Origin: Deltaproteobacteria bacterium | GTDB taxonomy: Bacteria; Desulfobacterota; Dissulfuribacteria; Dissulfuribacterales; QOAL01 | Reading direction: 5' to 3' | DNA: 43,495 nucleotides | Assembly (NCBI GenBank): GCA_026986785.1 | Contig: JALSNW010000017.1 | Location: 1-43,495 of the forward strand | Notes under the pieces: model-generated | The model's database searches: none | What the model saw: only the letters and a program-made list of their open reading frames with translations | Told to the model about the DNA's origin: nothing | Made by a program: the position numbers and the translations under genes | Shown here: positions 15,255 through 25,044 of the stretch, piece after piece | Layout of the letters: every line of letters begins with the position of its first letter | Position numbering within the stretch: position 1 is the first letter of the stretch

Positions 15255-16483
15255 AATTAGGGACAGGCAAATAATTCAAGTCCATTCCCCTATTCATCCG
15301 ATTATATATATTGGAGATAGACACGTAATTAAGGATAACAAAGCCATGCCGCGCATTCCAAGGATGCTCATTACAGGGGAGCCAACCGCATATCACGTGA
15401 TGTCAAAAACTGCCCTGGATGGATATGTTCTGGGGGATGTAGAAAAGGAATACCTCCTGGCACTTATGAAGCATATTAGCAGGGTCTATTTTGTAAATGT
15501 CCTTGGGTTTTGCATCATGGGTAACCATTTCCACCTGCTTGCCCGTATGCTTCCAGGGGATATGATCGACGATAGCGAGGTCTTAAGGCGTTATCAGATT
15601 TACTATGGACCTGATGTACAGGTAAAACTCACAAAAGAAAAGATAGGATTTTTTAGGGACAAATGGTCCAGTCTTTCTGAATATGTTAGGGAGATTAAGC
15701 AAAGGTTTTCCAGATTTTACAATAAAAGACATGGTAGAAAGGGCTTTTTCTGGGGGGAAAGATTCAAGAGTGTGATAGTGGAAGATGGACATACCCTTAT
15801 CAATTGCCTTGCTTATATAGACCTGAATCCAGTACGTGCTGGATTGTGCAAAAGGCCTGAGGACTACAGGTGGAATTCTATTGGCTATCACATGCAATCC
15901 AACAATAAAGGCGATTTTCTTTCACTGGATTTTGGTCTTCTTGACCAAGAGGGTCTGGATCAAGATGGCCGTTTAGCCAGATACATAAATTATGTATATG
16001 AAAAGGCAGGGCTGGCCTGTTCTAAAGAGACTTCTAATAAAGGGCTTGGTATCTCTAATCGTCTTCTTTGTCGAACCAGGTACTTTACAGATAGTGCAGT
16101 CATAGGCACCAAGGACTTTGTATCTACCTGTTATCAACGTTTCAGGGATTATTTTACCTGCCGCAGAGAAAAAAGACCCGTGCCCATTTCTGGCCTTTCC
16201 GGGATTTATTCTCTTAAGCGGTTGACAGAATAGTTGACATACTCAGCAAAGAGAACTGTCATATCCTGTCGTAATCACGCGATATCAGACATAAACATTC
16301 TTCTTGTCATAATGTCTAAAAATTTAGCTCTACACTTATAGATTTCTACCCCTTTTGGCGTTTGACTGGTGTCATGCCACCATAGAGTAGACCGTTTAGA
16401 GATTTCAAATATGGATATTCGGGTATTATTGCGAAGATGGCCGAATAATTTGTCTGAATTACATAATTTGCCTGTCCCCAATT
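15255..16483. mobile_element. RAYT/IS200-like element bounded by an 18-bp inverted repeat
   Basis: AATTAGGGACAGGCAAAT (15255-15272) and ATTTGCCTGTCCCCAATT (16466-16483) are reverse complements at 17 of 18 positions and bracket a single Y1-family transposase gene. Both copies are also accompanied by a nearby aattca/gaatta word. Such GGGACAGGC-type palindromic arms occur beside REP-associated tyrosine transposases. The unit lies where nucleotide-metabolism genes would often follow the dCMP deaminase, suggesting an insertion. Exact boundaries are inferred from the repeats; no target duplication is expected for this enzyme class. Confidence 0.6.
15346..16233 (+). CDS. REP-associated (IS200-like, Y1/HUH) tyrosine transposase
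   Basis: A 295-residue member of the Y1 transposase superfamily, longer than IS200/IS605 TnpA (about 140) and of the RAYT-like single-copy kind. The N terminus MPRIPRMLITGEPTAYHVMSKT, the metal-binding HUH in IMGNHFHLLARM (about residues 58-68), the catalytic-tyrosine helix VREIKQRFSRFYNKRHGRKGFFWGERFKS and AYIDLNPVRAGL are characteristic. These enzymes nick single-stranded hairpin DNA. The gene seems intact and sits within an inverted repeat. The C-terminal about 90 residues are the extension seen in this subgroup. Confidence 0.88.
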   Translation: MPRIPRMLITGEPTAYHVMSKTALDGYVLGDVEKEYLLALMKHISRVYFVNVLGFCIMGNHFHLLARMLPGDMIDDSEVLRRYQIYYGPDVQVKLTKEKIGFFRDKWSSLSEYVREIKQRFSRFYNKRHGRKGFFWGERFKSVIVEDGHTLINCLAYIDLNPVRAGLCKRPEDYRWNSIGYHMQSNNKGDFLSLDFGLLDQEGLDQDGRLARYINYVYEKAGLACSKETSNKGLGISNRLLCRTRYFTDSAVIGTKDFVSTCYQRFRDYFTCRREKRPVPISGLSGIYSLKRLTE

Positions 16484-16791
16484 CTGCTCCCAATTCTGCT
16501 ACTGTTAACAGATAAAATTGGATGTTTGATAAAAAGGGAACTTATGGGTATTATCTCATATGTATAAGATTTCAGACATAATGGTTTGGGGCATTTTAAT
16601 GTCAGCCCATCTGCTTTTGGGTACTTAATACTTGTTTTAGGTTTTAGAAAACCCCCGCCTGGCAAGAGGTGATTTTTTCAAACCCGTAGTAACAATTGAA
16701 TAGGGCAATTTTGTCTTTTTGTATCATAGTGTCGAAATTCCAGAAAATGATATCCCCATGAAGACCAGGAAGTTGTCTGGAGAGGATGTTA
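16234..16791. other. Non-coding stretch between the transposase and the lipid operon
   Basis: 558 bases with no credible ORF. It holds the right arm of the transposase inverted repeat (16466-16483), a 12-bp tandem duplication (16477-16500), and a small inverted repeat ATTCGG/CCGAAT around 16417-16446. The second half (16500-16790) should include the promoter of the following operon, but no convincing -35/-10 pair stood out. Confidence 0.5.
16477..16500. repeat. Tandem duplication of a 12-mer
   Basis: CCCAATTCTGCT occurs twice in direct succession (16477-16488 and 16489-16500). The first copy overlaps the end of the right inverted-repeat arm of the transposase element, so the duplication lies exactly at the presumed element edge. 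Confidence 0.7.
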
Positions 16792-19497
16792 ATGTCTGAA
16801 AAAAGGCTTTTCCATAAACAGAGGCGACCAAGTGTGTCGTTTATGTTAGATAGTGAGATATTTACTGGATCTATCCTCGCCTTCTGGGACAATGGGCTTG
16901 AGATCCAGCTAGATTCTTCCGTCCATGCAGAGGTTGGTATGGTGGTCTGCAATCTGACTCTGGGGGATCAGGATGGGTGTCCTGTCGTAAGTCGCTTGTG
17001 GATAGAGACTCTATGTCAAAAGGATGCAGCCTCCATAATCCAGGTGCAATGCCGAAATAGTCAAGAAAGGGCCGATCTTGCCCAGGCCTTGGAGTTTCTG
17101 CTGTCGCCCTCACAGCCAGCCAATGGGAAGGTTGACCAGAGCAGGATACCGAGGTTTTCAAAAAAGGGGCACTATACTCAAAAGGCGGTGCAAAAGAGGC
17201 TCGATTGGGCAAGAGTAGTATCGGGTTCGCGCCTTGAGTACATCGATATGTCCATTTTGCGGCCTGAATCCCTGGCCGGAAACATCGAAAATTATATAGG
17301 GGCCGTCCAGATCCCTATAGGGCTGGCAGGGCCTTTGTTGGTCAAAGGTACCTATATAGATGGCTATGTGCCTCTGCCCATAGCAACCACTGAAGGTGCA
17401 CTCGTCAGTTCTATAAGCAGGGGGGCAAAGGCCTGTAGCCTTGCAGGTGGTATACATGTCCATGTATCAAGGCAGCATATGGTGAGGGCCCCTGTCTTTT
17501 TCTGCCAAGACCTGGAGGGGGCTGTAAATCTGGAAAGATGGATTCTTGGACACCTGGAAGAGATCAGGGAAAAGGCCGAGAGTGTCTCTTCTGTTGCCAG
17601 GCTCGAACGGATTTTGCCAGTGATCCTTGGGAATGCCCTCCACTTGAGATTCTACTTCAGTACAGGGGATGCAGCTGGACAGAATATGACCTCTGCTTGT
17701 ACCTGGGTTGCCTGTGAATGGATAGCAGACAGTATAAGAGACGATCCTTTTATCGGCTATCAGTGGCACAACATAGAGGCCAATATGTCCGGGGACAAAA
17801 AGGCCAACTTCCAGAATTTTATAGAAGGTCGAGGGCTGGCAGTGGTTGCTGGCTGTTTTGTGCCAGGTAAGGTGCTCAGAAGGATCCTGCGGGTTAGCCC
17901 AGAGCAGTTTGTGAGGGTCTGGTCAGAGGCAGAATTCAGCGCCCACTACACGGGCATGATGGGATCAAACATAAATTTCGCAAACGTGATTGCAGGTATC
18001 TTTACTGCCACGGGTCAGGATATAGCCTGTGTCCACGAGTCTTCCAGTGGCATTTTCAAGGCGAGAAAAAGGGATGACGGGCTCATGTTCTCGGCAATAC
18101 TGCCTTCCATCGTGGCAGGGACAGTGGGGGGAGGGACAAAACTGCCGGTCCAGAGGGAGTGCCTGGAGCTCATGGGATGCTACGGACAAGGTAGGCTTTT
18201 CAGGTTTGCAGAGATCGTGGGTGCAGCATGTCTTGCCCTCGATATCTCCACAGGTGCAGCAATAGTGACGAACGATTTTGTCAGTGCCCATGAACGCCTG
18301 GGCAGAAATAGGCCGACAAACAGGATTTCTTGGTCTGAGATCAATGAAAAATTCTTTTCAGACCTGTTCCAACAGCCAAAAGTAGTTGTCAAGCGAGTTA
18401 AAAGGATGCCGCGGAAGAGCTGTTCTGGAATAATTTCCACTATTACCAGTAGGTCATCGGGTGTGCATGGCCTACACCGCTTTTTGGTGACCGGACAGAC
18501 ATCGGATGGAGAAAGGCGGATACCGGTATTCCTGAAGCTCAAGGCATCCAGCAGAGAGCTTGCTGAGATAGGTCTCAAGGTTGCAAAGCTCACAGGAGAA
18601 GACCGGCTGCCAGGGCTGTATGAATCCCAGTCCCACATCTTCTGCTTGGATGACAGCCACATCAGGGAGTTGAAGATATATCAAGATATCGATCCCCGCG
18701 TGCTTGCATATTGTCCCAAGATCTACGGTACAATGGCCAATCCCAGGCGGGAGATCTATGCAGTCTTGATGGAAGACCTTACAGGCAGCCGCTACTATGA
18801 CTCTATTCACCGCGGGGGAAACTGGAACAGGGAAAGTATAAAAACTGTTCTTTCAGACATGGCGGCCCTCCATGCTGTCTATTTTGACAGGTACCAGGGC
18901 CTGAAGGAGATGAATATATACAGGCTGGGCAAGGATTTTGTCTGTAGCGCATCAGAGCTTTTGAAAGAGCTTACTCAATTTAATGCCATGCGCTATCCCG
19001 AGCTTATCTCCCCTCGCATAAAAGAGATATATCAAGCCTTTCTATATGATCTTGAGGAAAATATCGATAGGATGCTCTCTTTCCCCCAGACCCTGACACA
19101 CAATGATTTCAATCCGAGAAACCTATGTCTCAGAAAGGGCAACAGGCAGCCATCCACGGTGCTGTACGACTGGGAACTTGCCTTTTTTCAAAACCCCCAA
19201 CATGATCTCCTGGAATTTCTCATCTTTGTGCTCAAAGAAGGTAGCCCCAGGGAGGAATATCTGAACTATGCAGACTTTTATTTGGGACGTCTGCAGGGCA
19301 TCCTGGGAAAGGAATTCTCCAGGAGGCATTTTTTAGATGTCCTGGATCTAAATGCAGTGTTTTTTGCCCTGGTCAGGATGAACCTCTATCTCTTGGGCCA
19401 TAACATATTGAAACTCGGATTCTTGGAGCGGGTCTACAAAAATCTTACAGCCTTCATAGAAAACAGTCGGCATGGTTCCAAACCAAAGGCTGGATGA
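16792..19497 (+). CDS. PilZ-like / HMG-CoA reductase / APH-kinase fusion protein
   Basis: 901 residues from ATG 16792 (ggagagg at 16779-16785; ATG 16786 is too close to it). Residues about 10-105 look PilZ-like (RRPSVSFMLDSEIFTGSI ... DNGLEI). Residues about 130-535 are an HMG-CoA reductase with all catalytic positions: Glu201 (TTEGALVSS), Lys336 (MSGDKKANFQNFIEGRG), Asp410 (TATGQD) and His500 (SAHERLGRNRP), plus a nucleotide-binding STGDAAGQNMTS. It resembles the class I (archaeal/eukaryotic) type, which makes mevalonate with NADPH. Residues about 560-880 are an aminoglycoside/choline-kinase-like domain with LTHNDFNPRNLCL (catalytic Asp772) and LYDWELAF (metal-binding Asp793). No signal peptide or membrane helix is seen. 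It opens a six-gene lipid operon. The kinase substrate is unknown; mevalonate, a prenyl alcohol or a small head-group alcohol are possibilities. Confidence 0.88.
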   Translation: MSEKRLFHKQRRPSVSFMLDSEIFTGSILAFWDNGLEIQLDSSVHAEVGMVVCNLTLGDQDGCPVVSRLWIETLCQKDAASIIQVQCRNSQERADLAQALEFLLSPSQPANGKVDQSRIPRFSKKGHYTQKAVQKRLDWARVVSGSRLEYIDMSILRPESLAGNIENYIGAVQIPIGLAGPLLVKGTYIDGYVPLPIATTEGALVSSISRGAKACSLAGGIHVHVSRQHMVRAPVFFCQDLEGAVNLERWILGHLEEIREKAESVSSVARLERILPVILGNALHLRFYFSTGDAAGQNMTSACTWVACEWIADSIRDDPFIGYQWHNIEANMSGDKKANFQNFIEGRGLAVVAGCFVPGKVLRRILRVSPEQFVRVWSEAEFSAHYTGMMGSNINFANVIAGIFTATGQDIACVHESSSGIFKARKRDDGLMFSAILPSIVAGTVGGGTKLPVQRECLELMGCYGQGRLFRFAEIVGAACLALDISTGAAIVTNDFVSAHERLGRNRPTNRISWSEINEKFFSDLFQQPKVVVKRVKRMPRKSCSGIISTITSRSSGVHGLHRFLVTGQTSDGERRIPVFLKLKASSRELAEIGLKVAKLTGEDRLPGLYESQSHIFCLDDSHIRELKIYQDIDPRVLAYCPKIYGTMANPRREIYAVLMEDLTGSRYYDSIHRGGNWNRESIKTVLSDMAALHAVYFDRYQGLKEMNIYRLGKDFVCSASELLKELTQFNAMRYPELISPRIKEIYQAFLYDLEENIDRMLSFPQTLTHNDFNPRNLCLRKGNRQPSTVLYDWELAFFQNPQHDLLEFLIFVLKEGSPREEYLNYADFYLGRLQGILGKEFSRRHFLDVLDLNAVFFALVRMNLYLLGHNILKLGFLERVYKNLTAFIENSRHGSKPKAG

Positions 19498-22047
19498 GTG
19501 ATAGTTGTGACTTCATCTATACCTGCCATAGTAGCACTTTCATCGTCAATGAGCTTGCCACTTGAGCAGGTTGGGGCCAAGGCCTCAAGGCTTGCCGAGA
19601 TGATGAACATGGGATTTCCCGTACCTGATGGTTGGGTAGTGACTGAAAAGGCCTTCAGGGATTTTTGCATCCACAACCATATATCGTGGGAGGATGTGCA
19701 TCTTCTACCGGAGACCATTATGGAGGGTTCGTTTCCTGCCGGCCTTGAAAAGGAGATCCGGCAGCGGCTGAGAGGTCCAGACAGGAGAAGAGGGCTCTTT
19801 GCTGTCAGGTCGTCTTCTTGTGCAGAAGATGGGCTTGATTTCTCTATGGCAGGCCAGTTTGAGACAATTCTGGATGTGACAGTACAGGGTATAAGCCATG
19901 CGGTCAAGAGGTGCTGGGCCAGCAGGTATGGTCAGGCTGTGAGCGCCTATATGAAGAAGAGGATGTCCAGGCAGGTCCCTTCCATGGGGGTGATCATACA
20001 GGAACAGATAAATCCTGTCTTTTCTGGTGTACTCTTCACAATGAATCCCCTCAACAGGTCTACGGACCAACTCGTTGTGGAGTGGGTTGAGGGCTTAGGA
20101 GAGAAGTTGGTATCAGGTCAGGTGGTCCCTGGGCGCATCTATCTGGATCGAGGTTCTGGTATCACTGGCCAGAGTGTGCCCCAAGGGCTTAAGGGCCATC
20201 TGATCTTACTCAGGCGTTTTGCCTTGGAGGCAGAGAGGATCTTTTCTCAGCCTGTGGACATGGAATGGTGTTGTGATGAGAAGAGACTCTATGTTCTTCA
20301 GGCAAGGCCCATTACAGGCATATCCAACCCGGACATGGTTGCATGGACCAATGCCAACATGGCTGAGAACTTCCCCATGGTCCTTGCTCCTCTGGCCTGG
20401 TCGGCAGTGGACTATTTTTATACCTGTTACATGGAGTGTGCGCTGAAGTTTTTTGGCTGGGCAGACAGGCTTTCTGATATCCAGGACATCCTCACCAGCC
20501 TCAACGGTGTCCACTGTGGAAGGATATATTACAATTTGAATAGTTGGTACCAAGTCATGTACCTGTTTCCCATGGGGAAGTGGCTGGCAAGATTTCTGGA
20601 TACCTATATCGGCCAGAAGACAACCATATCGATTAGCCCTGCCAAAGAGGCCACGAAGAGGGCCAGTCCCTTGGCAAGGGGCATGGACATGCTTCTTTTC
20701 TGGCCTCGTCTCATCTTGGCCATCTCCATGGCAGGACGGTATATGGATGTCTTGGAAGATCATTTTCATGACAAGAGGGCAGGATGGAGGTCAAGGGATG
20801 GAGACAGGTCAGGGCTGCCAGCGGCCCTGGAGATCATGGAGGATTTGTTTGCTATAGTGAAAGAGGCATGGCAAGGGCCATTTTGTGCTGATCTAAAGGT
20901 CATGGTTATGACCGGGCTCTTGGAAGTGCTCATTGGACACTGGATCAACCAGGATACGGTGCCTGTAATGGCGAGGCTTATGCAAGGCATCGAGGTGAAA
21001 AGTACAGAGCCTACCCGCCTTATATGGCAAATGGCCAAACTCATCGAACAGGATGAAGGTCTTTTGGGCTTACTCGAGGCAAGGGACTATAATGGGCTCG
21101 AAAAGGCCCTAAACAGGCAACAGCAAGTCTTGCTTCATTCCTTCATGAAGGATTTTGGCGCCCGCTGCTACCATGATTGCATGCTCGTTCATCCCACCTT
21201 TGAGGAACGCCACGATCTGTACTGGGATCTTGTCAGGAGATATGTGGGGGCCAAGGGAGCGTCTGGCAACTGGGACAGGGACAAACGAGAAAGCTGGCGC
21301 ATATCTTTTGAAGAACACACCAAGGCCCTGCCTTGGTGGAAGAGCTTGGTGTTCAGAAAGGTCCTTTATTTAGCCAGAGATGCAACGGTGCTCAGGGAGA
21401 GGGGGAGGCTGTTTCAGAGCCTTCTTTTCGGTGAGATGAGGCGCATCAGTTTACTTCTTGGCCGGCATTTGGCGGAAAAAGGTCATCTGAGACAGGAGGA
21501 AGATGTCTTCTTTCTCCAGCTTTCGGAGATCAGAGACATGGTGGAGGGCAAATTTCAATTCCCGGAAACTGTCCCCAGGCTTGTGGACATACGAAAAGAG
21601 GCCCTGAGCCGGAATGAGGAATTGGAGCCACCGGAATTTTTTCTCACACCAAAAGGTGAGTATTATATGGCAGATGGCTATGCCCAAGATGGCAGGCCCA
21701 CAATGGGCTTGACAGGCATGGGGGTGTCAGGGGGTAAGAGGATAGGTCGGGTGAGGATAGTCCTCGATCCATCTTCTGGTCATGGGCTCAAGGATGGCGA
21801 TATCCTTGTCACCCGTACTACCGATCCTGGTTGGACACCTCTGTTTTTTATTGCAGGCGGTCTCGTGTTGGAGAAGGGAGGCATGCTCTCCCACGGGGCC
21901 ATCGTTGCCCGAGAGTTTGGCATACCAGCCATTGTGGACATGAAAGGTGCCACCCGCATCTTGAAGGATGGACAATTGGTGGAGGTGGATGGAAATGCTG
22001 GCACGGTAAAGGTGCTTGAAGGGGAACAGGCAGGCCCTCAGAAATGA
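19498..22047 (+). CDS. PEP-synthase/rifampicin-phosphotransferase-like dikinase
   Basis: 849 residues. The N-terminal ATP-binding domain (to about residue 280) has GAKASRLAEMMNMGFPVPDGW, LFAVRSSSCAEDG, SMAGQFETILDV and YVLQARPITG. The C terminus is the swivelling phosphohistidine domain, with His799 in KGGMLSHGAIVAREFGIPAIV. Between them lie about 430 residues without a family I recognise. The pyruvate/PEP barrel that follows the His domain in PpsA is absent; the order ATP-grasp, insert, His domain is that of rifampicin phosphotransferase-like enzymes, which use ATP to phosphorylate a non-pyruvate acceptor, releasing AMP and phosphate. GTG 19498 abuts the upstream stop; ATG 19549 is an alternative start. 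It overlaps the UbiA gene by ATGA. The context suggests a lipid or isoprenoid acceptor. Confidence 0.82.
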   Translation: MIVVTSSIPAIVALSSSMSLPLEQVGAKASRLAEMMNMGFPVPDGWVVTEKAFRDFCIHNHISWEDVHLLPETIMEGSFPAGLEKEIRQRLRGPDRRRGLFAVRSSSCAEDGLDFSMAGQFETILDVTVQGISHAVKRCWASRYGQAVSAYMKKRMSRQVPSMGVIIQEQINPVFSGVLFTMNPLNRSTDQLVVEWVEGLGEKLVSGQVVPGRIYLDRGSGITGQSVPQGLKGHLILLRRFALEAERIFSQPVDMEWCCDEKRLYVLQARPITGISNPDMVAWTNANMAENFPMVLAPLAWSAVDYFYTCYMECALKFFGWADRLSDIQDILTSLNGVHCGRIYYNLNSWYQVMYLFPMGKWLARFLDTYIGQKTTISISPAKEATKRASPLARGMDMLLFWPRLILAISMAGRYMDVLEDHFHDKRAGWRSRDGDRSGLPAALEIMEDLFAIVKEAWQGPFCADLKVMVMTGLLEVLIGHWINQDTVPVMARLMQGIEVKSTEPTRLIWQMAKLIEQDEGLLGLLEARDYNGLEKALNRQQQVLLHSFMKDFGARCYHDCMLVHPTFEERHDLYWDLVRRYVGAKGASGNWDRDKRESWRISFEEHTKALPWWKSLVFRKVLYLARDATVLRERGRLFQSLLFGEMRRISLLLGRHLAEKGHLRQEEDVFFLQLSEIRDMVEGKFQFPETVPRLVDIRKEALSRNEELEPPEFFLTPKGEYYMADGYAQDGRPTMGLTGMGVSGGKRIGRVRIVLDPSSGHGLKDGDILVTRTTDPGWTPLFFIAGGLVLEKGGMLSHGAIVAREFGIPAIVDMKGATRILKDGQLVEVDGNAGTVKVLEGEQAGPQK

Positions 22048-22901
22048 TGCATGCCCTTAAGTCCTTTATAGAAGACAGATTTCCCCTCAAGGTCACGCTA
22101 CCTCTGTCCTTCGTACTTTTTGGTGCCCCTGCAAGCCTTTCGATGCCCAATCTCTTTTCGGCTGTCTGTGGATTTACCACCATTTTTTTGGCCCTGCTCG
22201 TACTTCGAATATGGGATGACATATCGGATCTGGAGATAGATGCAATAAAGAGCCCAGGAAGGGGCCTTGTCTCTGGAAGGATAGACGGAGAGAGGTTGGT
22301 ATGGGCATCTGGTTTTTTCTTGTTGATAGTCCTTTGCCTGAACAGCCTGGAGCCAGCCTTTCCTCTTGTGTGCCTTGTGATGGCCTATTATCTTATCTTC
22401 TTCCGCCATCTCAAAAAAAAGGTGCCTTTTGTCCTTCAACCCCTTTTGCTCAATGTGATCTTTTTTGTGATACCCCTTTATGCTGGTCTTCTTGGGGGGC
22501 ACCTGGATGGGAAGTTTTGGGCCCTCTCCCTATTCGTCTGGATAGGTGTGGTGGCCCACGACTATGCCCACAGTGTCCATGGCCCAGAGGAGGGGATGGA
22601 GGGTGTGCCGAGTTTCTCAGGTAGCATAGGTGCCAGGGGATCGGCCATTCTTGCAGGCACTTTTTTTCTATTATCGGCCTGTTTTGGCCTTGTTGTATGG
22701 ATGCTGGGAACAGGGGATGGGCTTTTTGTCACGGCCCTTTCATGTATGTCCCTTTTGATCTTGTACAGGTGCGGTCGGCTTCTTTTGCATCCCAGTTCGA
22801 GAGAGGCGAGGCCCTTTTATGTATCTGGTTTCTTGTTTTTCCTCATCCCCCTTATCGCCCTTGGGGCAGAGCGCCTTCTTTGTATGGTAGGAGTATGGTA
22901 A
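22044..22901 (+). CDS. UbiA-superfamily membrane prenyltransferase
   Basis: A 285-residue integral membrane protein with about eight or nine helices. The first Asp-rich motif is LRIWDDISDLEIDAIKSPGRGLVSGRI (Asp58, 59, 62, 66), which matches the UbiA pattern of Mg-diphosphate binding followed by P-x-R and SG-x-I. The second motif is modified (VVAHDYAHSVHGPEE). UbiA enzymes transfer a prenyl chain from its diphosphate to an acceptor: quinone head groups, haem, chlorophyll, or, in archaea, geranylgeranylglyceryl phosphate (DGGGP synthase). Overlap with both neighbours (ATGA upstream, TAATG downstream), and a PssA-type enzyme, a decarboxylase and a CarS homologue just downstream, make the glycerolipid role the most attractive inference. 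Sequence alone cannot exclude a quinone or other acceptor. Confidence 0.82.
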   Translation: MMHALKSFIEDRFPLKVTLPLSFVLFGAPASLSMPNLFSAVCGFTTIFLALLVLRIWDDISDLEIDAIKSPGRGLVSGRIDGERLVWASGFFLLIVLCLNSLEPAFPLVCLVMAYYLIFFRHLKKKVPFVLQPLLLNVIFFVIPLYAGLLGGHLDGKFWALSLFVWIGVVAHDYAHSVHGPEEGMEGVPSFSGSIGARGSAILAGTFFLLSACFGLVVWMLGTGDGLFVTALSCMSLLILYRCGRLLLHPSSREARPFYVSGFLFFLIPLIALGAERLLCMVGVW

Positions 22902-23536
22902 TGGGAATAAGACAGCATTTTATAGGCATATATAACCCGCCTTTTTTCGTTACCCTGTGTGGCCTGATGAGCGGCCTCTGGGCCTGTATATTCTCCTATG
23001 CCAGCCTTGTAGAGCTTGCGATCGTCTGTTTCATCATGGCAGGATTGTGCGACCTTTTTGACGGCGTAGTGGCGAGAAGGCTCAAGAGGACGAAGGATGA
23101 AAAGCTCTTTGGCCTTCACCTCGATTCAGTCGTGGATGCCATCAGTTTTGGTCTTGTGCCCGTGATACTTCTCCTCCATACTGGTTTTACATCCATCGTG
23201 GACTATTTCCTGTTTTCCATTTATTGTTTCAGCGCCACAACCCGTTTGGCATATTTCAATCTCCTTCAAGCCAGGTCCAAGGCCATGCCAGGTTATTATA
23301 CAGGACTTCCTGTCACCTACTCTGCCCTTGTGCTTCCACTGGCCTTTACTGTCGGGGTTTTTCTAAGCGATGAAATGGCAGGCCTGCTTATAAGGGCCAG
23401 TCTGTTTCTCCTCGCCTTTTTCTACGTGCTTGATGTCAAGGTGAAAAAACCAGGAGGGATCTTTTATGTGATCTTTCCGGTCATAGGGGCATCTTTGATC
23501 CTTTTCTGGCTCATAAGGTGGTCTTTCAGGACATGA
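22901..23536 (+). CDS. CDP-alcohol phosphatidyltransferase, phosphatidyl/archaetidylserine synthase type
   Basis: A 211-residue membrane enzyme that would exchange CMP on a CDP-activated lipid for an alcohol such as serine. The CDP-alcohol motif is complete: Asp51, Asp54, Gly55, Ala58, Arg59, then Gly71, Asp75 and Asp79 (DLFDGVVARR ... FGLHLDSVVDAISFG). The spacing between AR and G is 11 rather than the classic 8, as I recall from one PssA-like subfamily. The SFGLVPV sequence after the last Asp points to a serine-transferring PssA. The frame is open from 22697 inside the UbiA gene, but taggag (22888-22893) and ATG 22901, overlapping the UbiA stop by one base, fix the start. A decarboxylase gene follows after 15 bases. 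Confidence 0.88.
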   Translation: MGIRQHFIGIYNPPFFVTLCGLMSGLWACIFSYASLVELAIVCFIMAGLCDLFDGVVARRLKRTKDEKLFGLHLDSVVDAISFGLVPVILLLHTGFTSIVDYFLFSIYCFSATTRLAYFNLLQARSKAMPGYYTGLPVTYSALVLPLAFTVGVFLSDEMAGLLIRASLFLLAFFYVLDVKVKKPGGIFYVIFPVIGASLILFWLIRWSFRT

Positions 23537-23551
23537 GTAGGGGCTGATTGT

Positions 23552-24454
23552 ATGGGGGCACGCAACAGGGTTTTTCTATACAACAGGGAAACAGGCCTTA
23601 TAGAACAGGAACAGATCTATGAGAAGTGGTTCATGGACTGGTTCTATGGTACAGGGCCTGGGCGTTTGATCACCAGGTTTTTGCTGAGCAAAAAGGGTTT
23701 TTCAAGAGGTTATGCCTGGTTCAAGAAAAGACCTGGGAGCAAGGGCCAAATCATCCCTTTTGTAGAAAAATACAATATAGATATCAGTGAATTGGAAGAG
23801 CCTCTCGAACGATTCAGAGACTTCAATCACTTCTTCACGCGAAGATTGAAGCCAGGGGCAAGGCCCATAGAAATGTCCCATGACATTTTGATATCACCAG
23901 CAGATGGGAGGATGATGACGTTGTATATCGATACAGAGCTCATCGTGCCCATCAAGGGTTTGAGTTTTACCCTGGGTGATCTCCTTGGTGGCGTTCACAA
24001 AGTGGATGAATGGATGGGTGGGACATGTGTCAAGGTACGTCTTGCCCCATTTGACTATCACAGGTTTTGTTATATCGACAATGGTTATCACGGTCCAGTA
24101 GTGCATGTAGATGGGCATCTTCACTCGATCAGTCCCCTTGCTTTACAGCACAGGCTGAAGATCCTGCATGGCAACCTCAGGGACATTGTTGTACTTGAGA
24201 CAGAGAATTTTGGCAAGGTTGCCCATATTGACATAGGGGCTATTACAGTTGGCAGGATTCATCAGCACTATTGTCAGGGGACCAATTTCCGAAAGGGGCA
24301 GGAAAAGGGCTATTTTGAATTCGGTGGATCTACCATCGTCCTTCTCTTTGGCCCTGGCAGAATCAGGATAGATGAAGACATCCTCCATTATTCGAGAAAA
24401 GGGATAGAGAGCTTGGTGCGTTATGGTGGGCCTGTGGGCAGGAGGATCAAGTAG
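23552..24454 (+). CDS. psd: Phosphatidylserine (or archaetidylserine) decarboxylase
   Basis: A 300-residue pyruvoyl-dependent decarboxylase converting the serine head group to ethanolamine. Visible features are FNHFFTRRLKPGARPI, SPADGR (the Asp of the triad), VRLAPFDYHRFCYIDNG (His) and, near the C terminus, the self-cleavage motif GGST with Ser260 in FEFGGSTIVLLF. Cleavage there would give a short alpha subunit carrying the pyruvoyl group. The first Gly replaces the Leu of the E. coli LGST; GGST forms occur in other PSD groups. There is no N-terminal membrane anchor. Placed after a PssA-like enzyme and two bases before the CarS homologue, it is part of the same head-group pathway. Whether the backbone is diacyl or isoprenoid cannot be told from this protein. 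Confidence 0.9.
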   Translation: MGARNRVFLYNRETGLIEQEQIYEKWFMDWFYGTGPGRLITRFLLSKKGFSRGYAWFKKRPGSKGQIIPFVEKYNIDISELEEPLERFRDFNHFFTRRLKPGARPIEMSHDILISPADGRMMTLYIDTELIVPIKGLSFTLGDLLGGVHKVDEWMGGTCVKVRLAPFDYHRFCYIDNGYHGPVVHVDGHLHSISPLALQHRLKILHGNLRDIVVLETENFGKVAHIDIGAITVGRIHQHYCQGTNFRKGQEKGYFEFGGSTIVLLFGPGRIRIDEDILHYSRKGIESLVRYGGPVGRRIK

Positions 24455-24456
24455 CC

Positions 24457-25044
24457 ATGAGTTATTGGTTCAGGATATGTTATACGCTACTGCCAGTGAT
24501 CCTGGCAGGGGTATGCAACATGATTTTCGTCAAACTCCCTGTGCTCGATTGCCTGAAAAAGCCAATGGACAACGGCATGGTGTACAGGGACGGGAAGAGG
24601 CTCTTTGGCGCAAACAAGACATGGAAGGGATTTTTGGGCATGGTCTTTTTCACAGGGTTATGGATGTGGTGTTTGGGGAGCCTTGATGCCCTTTCCCCCT
24701 GGGTACGGGGCCTGTCTCTGATTTGCTACGAGGAGATTCCTCCAGCATGGCAGTGGTTCTATGGTGCTTTGTGGGGCCTTGGTTATGTGGTTTTTGAGCT
24801 GCCAAACAGCTATGTCAAAAGAAGAATCGGCATCCCTCCAGGGCAAAATGTCAAAGGGCTGAAGGGTTACATTTTCATGTTTGTTGACCAGGCGGATTCT
24901 GTCCTTGGCTGCATGGTGTTCATGCTCTTTTTCTACGTGCCTACAGTGTCCGAGGCCTTGGCCATTTTTGTGGCAGGTGTTGTCATACACTATGTGATAA
25001 ACATCATGCTCTTTGTGGTAGGGTTAAAGAAACAGCCTGCTTGA
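24457..25044 (+). CDS. carS: CDP-archaeol synthase homologue (CarS/DUF46)
   Basis: A 195-residue membrane protein with about five helices. CarS condenses CTP with an unsaturated archaetidic acid to give CDP-archaeol, the archaeal counterpart of CdsA. The diagnostic blocks are present in order: PMDNGMVYRDGKRLFGANKTWKGF (residues 36-59), ELPNSYVKRRIGIPPGQ (114-130) and VDQADSVLG (143-151). The NKTWKGF and DQxD forms fit CarS better than CdsA. Length and topology match the archaeal enzyme (about 165-180). It begins two bases after the decarboxylase gene and closes the operon, meeting the convergent fdhD gene after 19 bases. Bacterial homologues annotated as CDP-archaeol synthase exist, and their natural substrate is largely untested. 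Confidence 0.85.
   Translation: MSYWFRICYTLLPVILAGVCNMIFVKLPVLDCLKKPMDNGMVYRDGKRLFGANKTWKGFLGMVFFTGLWMWCLGSLDALSPWVRGLSLICYEEIPPAWQWFYGALWGLGYVVFELPNSYVKRRIGIPPGQNVKGLKGYIFMFVDQADSVLGCMVFMLFFYVPTVSEALAIFVAGVVIHYVINIMLFVVGLKKQPA

Follow-up and report, generated by a model that had tools for sequence, protein, structure and literature searches.

A PilZ-fold/HMG-CoA reductase-like/APH-fold kinase fusion at the head of a six-gene operon of a deltaproteobacterium

The window, a 43,495-nucleotide stretch of contig JALSNW010000017.1 (assembly GCA_026986785.1, Deltaproteobacteria bacterium), contains at positions 16792–19497 of the forward strand a single intact open reading frame that encodes a polypeptide of 901 amino acid residues. 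It starts with an ATG at 16792 and ends with a TGA at 19497, and an alternative in-frame ATG is found at 16786. The polypeptide possesses an N-terminal PilZ-fold domain (residues 1–112; 16792–17127), a class I HMG-CoA reductase (HMGR)-like domain (residues 132–505; 17185–18306) and a C-terminal APH/EcKL-fold kinase domain (residues 506–901; 18307–19494), all on the forward strand. Pfam searches matched HMG-CoA_red (PF00368) to residues 132–505 (E 1.8e-104), EcKL to residues 639–838 (E 1.3e-12) and APH to residues 625–833 (E 2e-9). Together with a structure model for the PilZ fold, these matches bear out the three-domain architecture described in the first-pass annotation. The reductase residues to which that annotation had assigned catalytic roles, Glu201, Lys336, Asp410 and His500, were all found in the protein, as was Asp793 of the kinase. 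Its description of a complete APH-like kinase loop with Asp793 was correct in that the motifs are kept, but the catalytic aspartate is Asp772 of the HND motif, and Asp793 is the metal-site aspartate of the YDWE motif. A literature search for the PilZ/reductase/kinase architecture found no report among open-access papers, which is weak evidence of novelty.

Among 60 related genomes, the full-length fusion was found at about 65% identity in assemblies of two other species, and two further copies were cut by contig ends. In a phylum-wide search, the kinase domain was identified in only 4 of 395 genomes, each time inside a long fusion ORF; one of these four genomes belongs to a distant family, and its fusion was 42% identical overall. 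The named records that bear the fusion are Deltaproteobacteria and Desulfobacteraceae MAGs. Beyond this phylum, where the survey covered a collection of plasmids and a single scan of contigs from genomes, a Streptomyces plasmid was found to encode the reductase-kinase half without the PilZ part (34% identity over 760 residues, E 9e-125). Among the members sampled, the PilZ part was seen only in the proteobacterial ones. The first-pass annotation had allowed for a false join of two ORFs, for domains that occur elsewhere only as separate genes and for a kinase with a broken active site. Given that the fusion recurs in independent relatives and its reductase-kinase half on the Streptomyces plasmid, an assembly artefact was ruled out as the origin of the fusion. 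Fused homologues do exist elsewhere, and the HND and YDWE motifs were conserved in the aligned kinase domains. In a maximum-likelihood tree, the reductase domains of five fusion proteins grouped in one clade with support of 100/99. Thus, a single fusion with later transfer or loss would be the simplest reading of their phylogeny.

Pfam returned no match for the N-terminal 112 residues. Their AlphaFold model (pLDDT 84) displayed a six-stranded barrel with a C-terminal helix, as in PilZ/YcgR domains, and PilZ domains were its top matches (Foldseek against PilZ/YcgR, E 1e-4 and probability 1.0; VIA against VCA0042, Z 13.0 and rmsd 2.8 over 101 residues). Unlike PilZ/YcgR domains, this domain lacks the RxxxR and D/NxSxxG motifs, both of which were absent from all six homologues, where other residues occupied those positions. 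In addition, H8, R11, W32 and G35 were invariant in the six homologues. The model therefore confirms the fold that had been suspected from the sequence; the suggested binding of c-di-GMP fared less well. With both motifs missing, canonical c-di-GMP binding by this domain is unlikely, although it may serve a structural purpose or bind something else, and c-di-GMP regulation via a PilZ motif was ruled out on the motifs of the six homologues.

The fusion gene is the first of six coupled genes on the forward strand. The second gene (19498–22047) starts with a GTG immediately after the TGA of the fusion gene and encodes a dikinase similar to PEP synthase and rifampin phosphotransferase, with PPDK_N and PEP-utilizers domains and a catalytic-type His799. 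It is followed by a gene for a UbiA-superfamily prenyltransferase-like protein (22044–22901), in which the first Asp-rich motif is kept and the second reads HD(Y/F)xHS. The ATG of the fourth gene (22901–23536), encoding a CDP-alcohol phosphatidyltransferase similar to PssA and archaetidylserine synthase, overlaps the stop codon of the UbiA-like gene. The last two genes encode a phosphatidylserine-decarboxylase-like (Psd-like) protein (23552–24454) and a CTP transferase similar to CarS of the CDP-archaeol synthase family (24457–25044). An IS200/Y1-transposase-like gene (15346–16233) lies directly 5' of the operon.

The same six genes in identical order were also found in L018, L015 and L020, the last of which is a contig that starts inside the reductase. 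The identities between the downstream gene products of the window and their counterparts were 42–69% in L018 and L015 and 35–48% in the more distantly related L020. A survey of the phylum for CarS identified three distant homologues, whose neighbourhoods contained no other relatives of the operon genes. The genome of this bacterium also possesses, outside the operon, a canonical CdsA gene adjoining Dxr and, elsewhere, a canonical psd-pssA pair. Given that the operon duplicates genes for phosphoethanolamine head-group synthesis that are found elsewhere in the genome, it probably makes a dedicated lipid separate from normal phosphatidylethanolamine.

The fold and the full catalytic set of the reductase domain are those of class I HMG-CoA reductases such as human HMGCR and the Methanothermococcus enzyme 6hr7, which was the best PDB match. 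E201, K336, D410 and H500 align with E559, K691, D767 and H866 of the human enzyme. The residues that anchor the HMG carboxylate, however, distinguish the window protein from these enzymes. Lys735 forms a salt bridge with the terminal carboxylate of HMG in plant HMG1 and human HMGCR (PMC9500038). Lys735 and Ser684 were both kept in all six mevalonate-pathway reductases compared (human, Arabidopsis, Methanothermococcus and three Streptomyces enzymes encoded within complete mevalonate clusters) and neither was kept in the window protein, which has Glu329 at the position of Ser684 and Ala380 at that of Lys735 (Ser378 by phmmer alignment). Lys735 was also missing from all 24 non-mevalonate relatives in the set of 30 reductases, and position 684 was Asp or Glu in most of these 24. 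The fused members further share changes of His752 to Asn (N395 in the window) and Leu853 to Thr. Moreover, the window protein scored 289.2 bits against NCBIfam TIGR00533, which is below the equivalog cut-off of 441.8. Seven relatives scored 254–370 bits, also all below the cut-off, while the archaeal control 6hr7 scored 634.9.

The mevalonate and non-mevalonate reductases were separated in the maximum-likelihood tree by a branch with 99/99 support. Fisher's test on the Lys735 split treats the relatives as independent, and the mevalonate set is one clade; therefore, the split represents one or few events and may reflect a single ancestral change. The equivalents of R590, D690, K692 and N755, which contact HMG, are still present in the window reductase. 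Their retention keeps an HMG-like substrate among the candidates and counts against the explanation preferred below. From the findings on the reductase as a whole, HMG-CoA is probably not the physiological substrate of any member of the non-mevalonate clade, whether fused or not.

A non-fused relative in L062 has an AMP-ligase gene beside it, along with genes for a dikinase and a UbiA-like protein; this dikinase was 28.6% identical to that of the window, a value that general family homology could also give. AMP-ligases were also found near non-fused relatives in L006 and on an Alteromonas plasmid. On the plasmid of Streptomyces sp. NBC_01435 (L078, 13200–18112), the fusion gene is flanked by a gene for an acid-activating enzyme of the GH3 family and one for a thymidylate-kinase-like protein. 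These three genes are closely spaced or overlapping, and inspection of the sequence showed NRPS-like genes further out. None of the genes adjoining the window fusion encodes an acyl-CoA ligase, which counts against the explanation preferred below. Given the recurrent association of acid activation, an acyl-thioester reductase and phosphotransferases, we infer from context an order that would run from acid to acyl-CoA to alcohol to phosphate.

Other associations were also observed. Non-fused HMGR-like proteins of about 530–570 residues in L060, L061, L064 and L065 adjoin LPG_synthase_C-like genes (recognized by eye except for the LPG_synthase_C of L060), and two of the four have SAM-methyltransferase-like genes, also recognized by eye, beside them. 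The protein of L061 bears Pfam HMG-CoA_red_N, and a PUFA/PKS-like synthase adjoins it. A divergent HMG-CoA reductase homologue, class II-like by eye, was found in L051 (1–2664, reverse strand), L053 (1–2664, reverse strand) and L049 (1366–3077, forward strand), fused to a C-terminal repeat resembling the alpha-alpha barrel of squalene-hopene cyclase and prenyltransferases. This fusion, which is different from that of the window, was seen in one genus of the same phylum.

The kinase domain contained the HxD loop, the DxE metal site and the N-lobe lysine of APH/EcKL-fold kinases, and both Pfam models scored over their cut-offs. HND, YDWE and the N-lobe lysines showed no variation across the aligned kinase domains, those of Streptomyces and L013 among them. 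In its structure model, which is of modest confidence (pLDDT 65, with the catalytic loop poorly modelled) and to that extent counts against the explanation preferred below, the predicted fold is clearly of the APH type. The best Foldseek matches were Rv3168 and 25-hydroxy steroid kinase, which are stand-alone proteins with 11–13% identity to the window kinase; the latter phosphorylates an alcohol on a hydrophobic isoprenoid side chain. The best VIA matches were corramycin phosphotransferase and sugar or choline kinases, with Z of 13–15.

The reading that we favor, with a probability of roughly 0.45, is that the fusion protein is a bifunctional acyl-CoA reductase-kinase that acts on a non-HMG acyl thioester and serves a CDP-dependent lipid pathway. 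It is plausible, as the first-pass annotation had suggested, that one polypeptide both reduces and phosphorylates. Given that the Lys735 that grips HMG-CoA is lost, another activated acid is probably reduced and phosphorylated, outside the mevalonate pathway. The reductase domain would belong to an HMGR-derived bacterial clade with a role outside mevalonate synthesis, and would convert an acyl thioester other than HMG-CoA to a primary alcohol at the expense of two NAD(P)H. The kinase would then phosphorylate this alcohol or another hydroxyl on the same molecule, and the dikinase and the UbiA-like protein would process the phosphorylated product further. The CarS-, PssA- and Psd-like proteins would add a CDP-activated and finally a phosphoethanolamine head group, and the end product would be a lipid distinct from the normal phosphatidylethanolamine of the cell. 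The PilZ-fold domain would be a lineage-specific addition.

The two activities might also act in the reverse order. The kinase would then phosphorylate a hydroxyl of an acyl-CoA as in ACAD10/ACAD11, the reductase would act on the resulting phospho-hydroxyacyl-CoA, and the altered acyl pocket would mirror a different acyl tail. The APH-like kinase domain of ACAD11 is fused to a CoA enzyme and phosphorylates 4-hydroxyacyl-CoA (PMC11342911), and it was the best and only match of note when the kinase profile was searched against PDB sequences. The match was weak (E 0.008), however, and covered only the catalytic loop, the structure searches preferred other APH kinases, and the acidic Glu329 would be unfavorable to a phosphorylated tail, all of which make this order unlikely. 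In ACAD10/ACAD11 and bacterial LvaA, as in the window protein, an APH-fold kinase is linked to a CoA-thioester enzyme or acts together with one, but the partner there is an acyl-CoA dehydrogenase instead of a reductase and the sequence similarity is very weak. ACAD11 is a precedent for the principle by analogy and not evidence of kinship.

The first-pass annotation had suggested that the kinase phosphorylates mevalonate or an isoprenoid alcohol further along the pathway. The reductase would thus make mevalonate from HMG-CoA and the kinase would convert it to phosphomevalonate for isoprenoids, which would suit the four catalytic residues and the HMG contacts that are kept, the presence of a kinase within the same chain and the UbiA-like gene in the operon. 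No mevalonate pathway was detectable in the genome, a 99% complete draft of 52 contigs in which absences were judged by searches with HMM and BLAST. The HMG-CoA synthase model PF08540 had no match; this absence is less firm, as the model also missed the synthases of the M. jannaschii and Sulfolobus control genomes. The genome contains Dxr, IspE, IspG and IspH of the MEP route as well as UppS, and IspE is its only GHMP kinase. The fusion kinase, which is APH/EcKL by Pfam and fold, lacks the GHMP fold and motifs of mevalonate kinase. Together with the replacement of Lys735 and Ser684 and the low TIGR00533 score, these results speak against the suggestion, which we regard as quite unlikely.

The operon was also compared with the archaeal phospholipid pathway, in which DGGGP synthase, CarS, archaetidylserine synthase and its decarboxylase are relatives of four of its products. 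The presence of CarS, the relationship of the UbiA-like protein to DGGGP synthase models and the archaetidylserine-type scores of the PssA- and Psd-like proteins would agree with an archaeal-type ether lipid similar to archaetidylethanolamine, with the reductase feeding the isoprenoid supply. Unlike that pathway, the window operon includes a dikinase and a reductase-kinase, and MEP genes supply the isoprenoids. GGGP synthase (PF01884) had no match in the 99% complete genome, whereas 7 of 14 control genomes were positive. The PF13685 matches over the cut-off were AroB and an iron alcohol dehydrogenase (Fe-ADH), both far under the 413-bit cut-off for G1P dehydrogenase. With no GGGP synthase and no protein at the G1P dehydrogenase cut-off, an archaeal lipid operon was ruled out as a candidate, and production of such an ether lipid is highly doubtful.

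The active-site motifs of both reductase and kinase were intact in the window, L003, L004 and Streptomyces. In the fused homologue of L013 (6690–9431), however, the catalytic Lys and His of the reductase are replaced by Arg and Gln, respectively, while the kinase motifs are intact. Reduction is therefore not needed everywhere, which counts against the reading that we favor, and in L013 the kinase may work alone. That the reductase domain generally serves mainly as a binding scaffold, with the kinase as the working part, is nevertheless very improbable, as the whole catalytic reductase set is kept in the window, L003, L005 and Streptomyces. Beside the L013 fusion, on the opposite strand, lies a gene for an aldehyde ferredoxin oxidoreductase.

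For the wider family, we tentatively propose a class of HMGR-derived enzymes that would convert the thioester of a carboxylic acid to a phosphorylated alcohol within a single polypeptide, in Deltaproteobacteria as part of a dedicated six-gene pathway to a phosphoethanolamine lipid and on the Streptomyces plasmid in a region of non-ribosomal peptide genes. Some of the non-mevalonate relatives are annotated as hydroxymethylglutaryl-CoA reductases in databases, and the clade-wide loss of Lys735 suggests that many bacterial genes so named do something else. Such misnamed reductases would lead to wrong predictions of statin sensitivity and of mevalonate pathways. If the bifunctional reading is true, the reductase-kinase would be a compact route from an acid to an alkyl phosphate and would open the way to an undescribed lipid.
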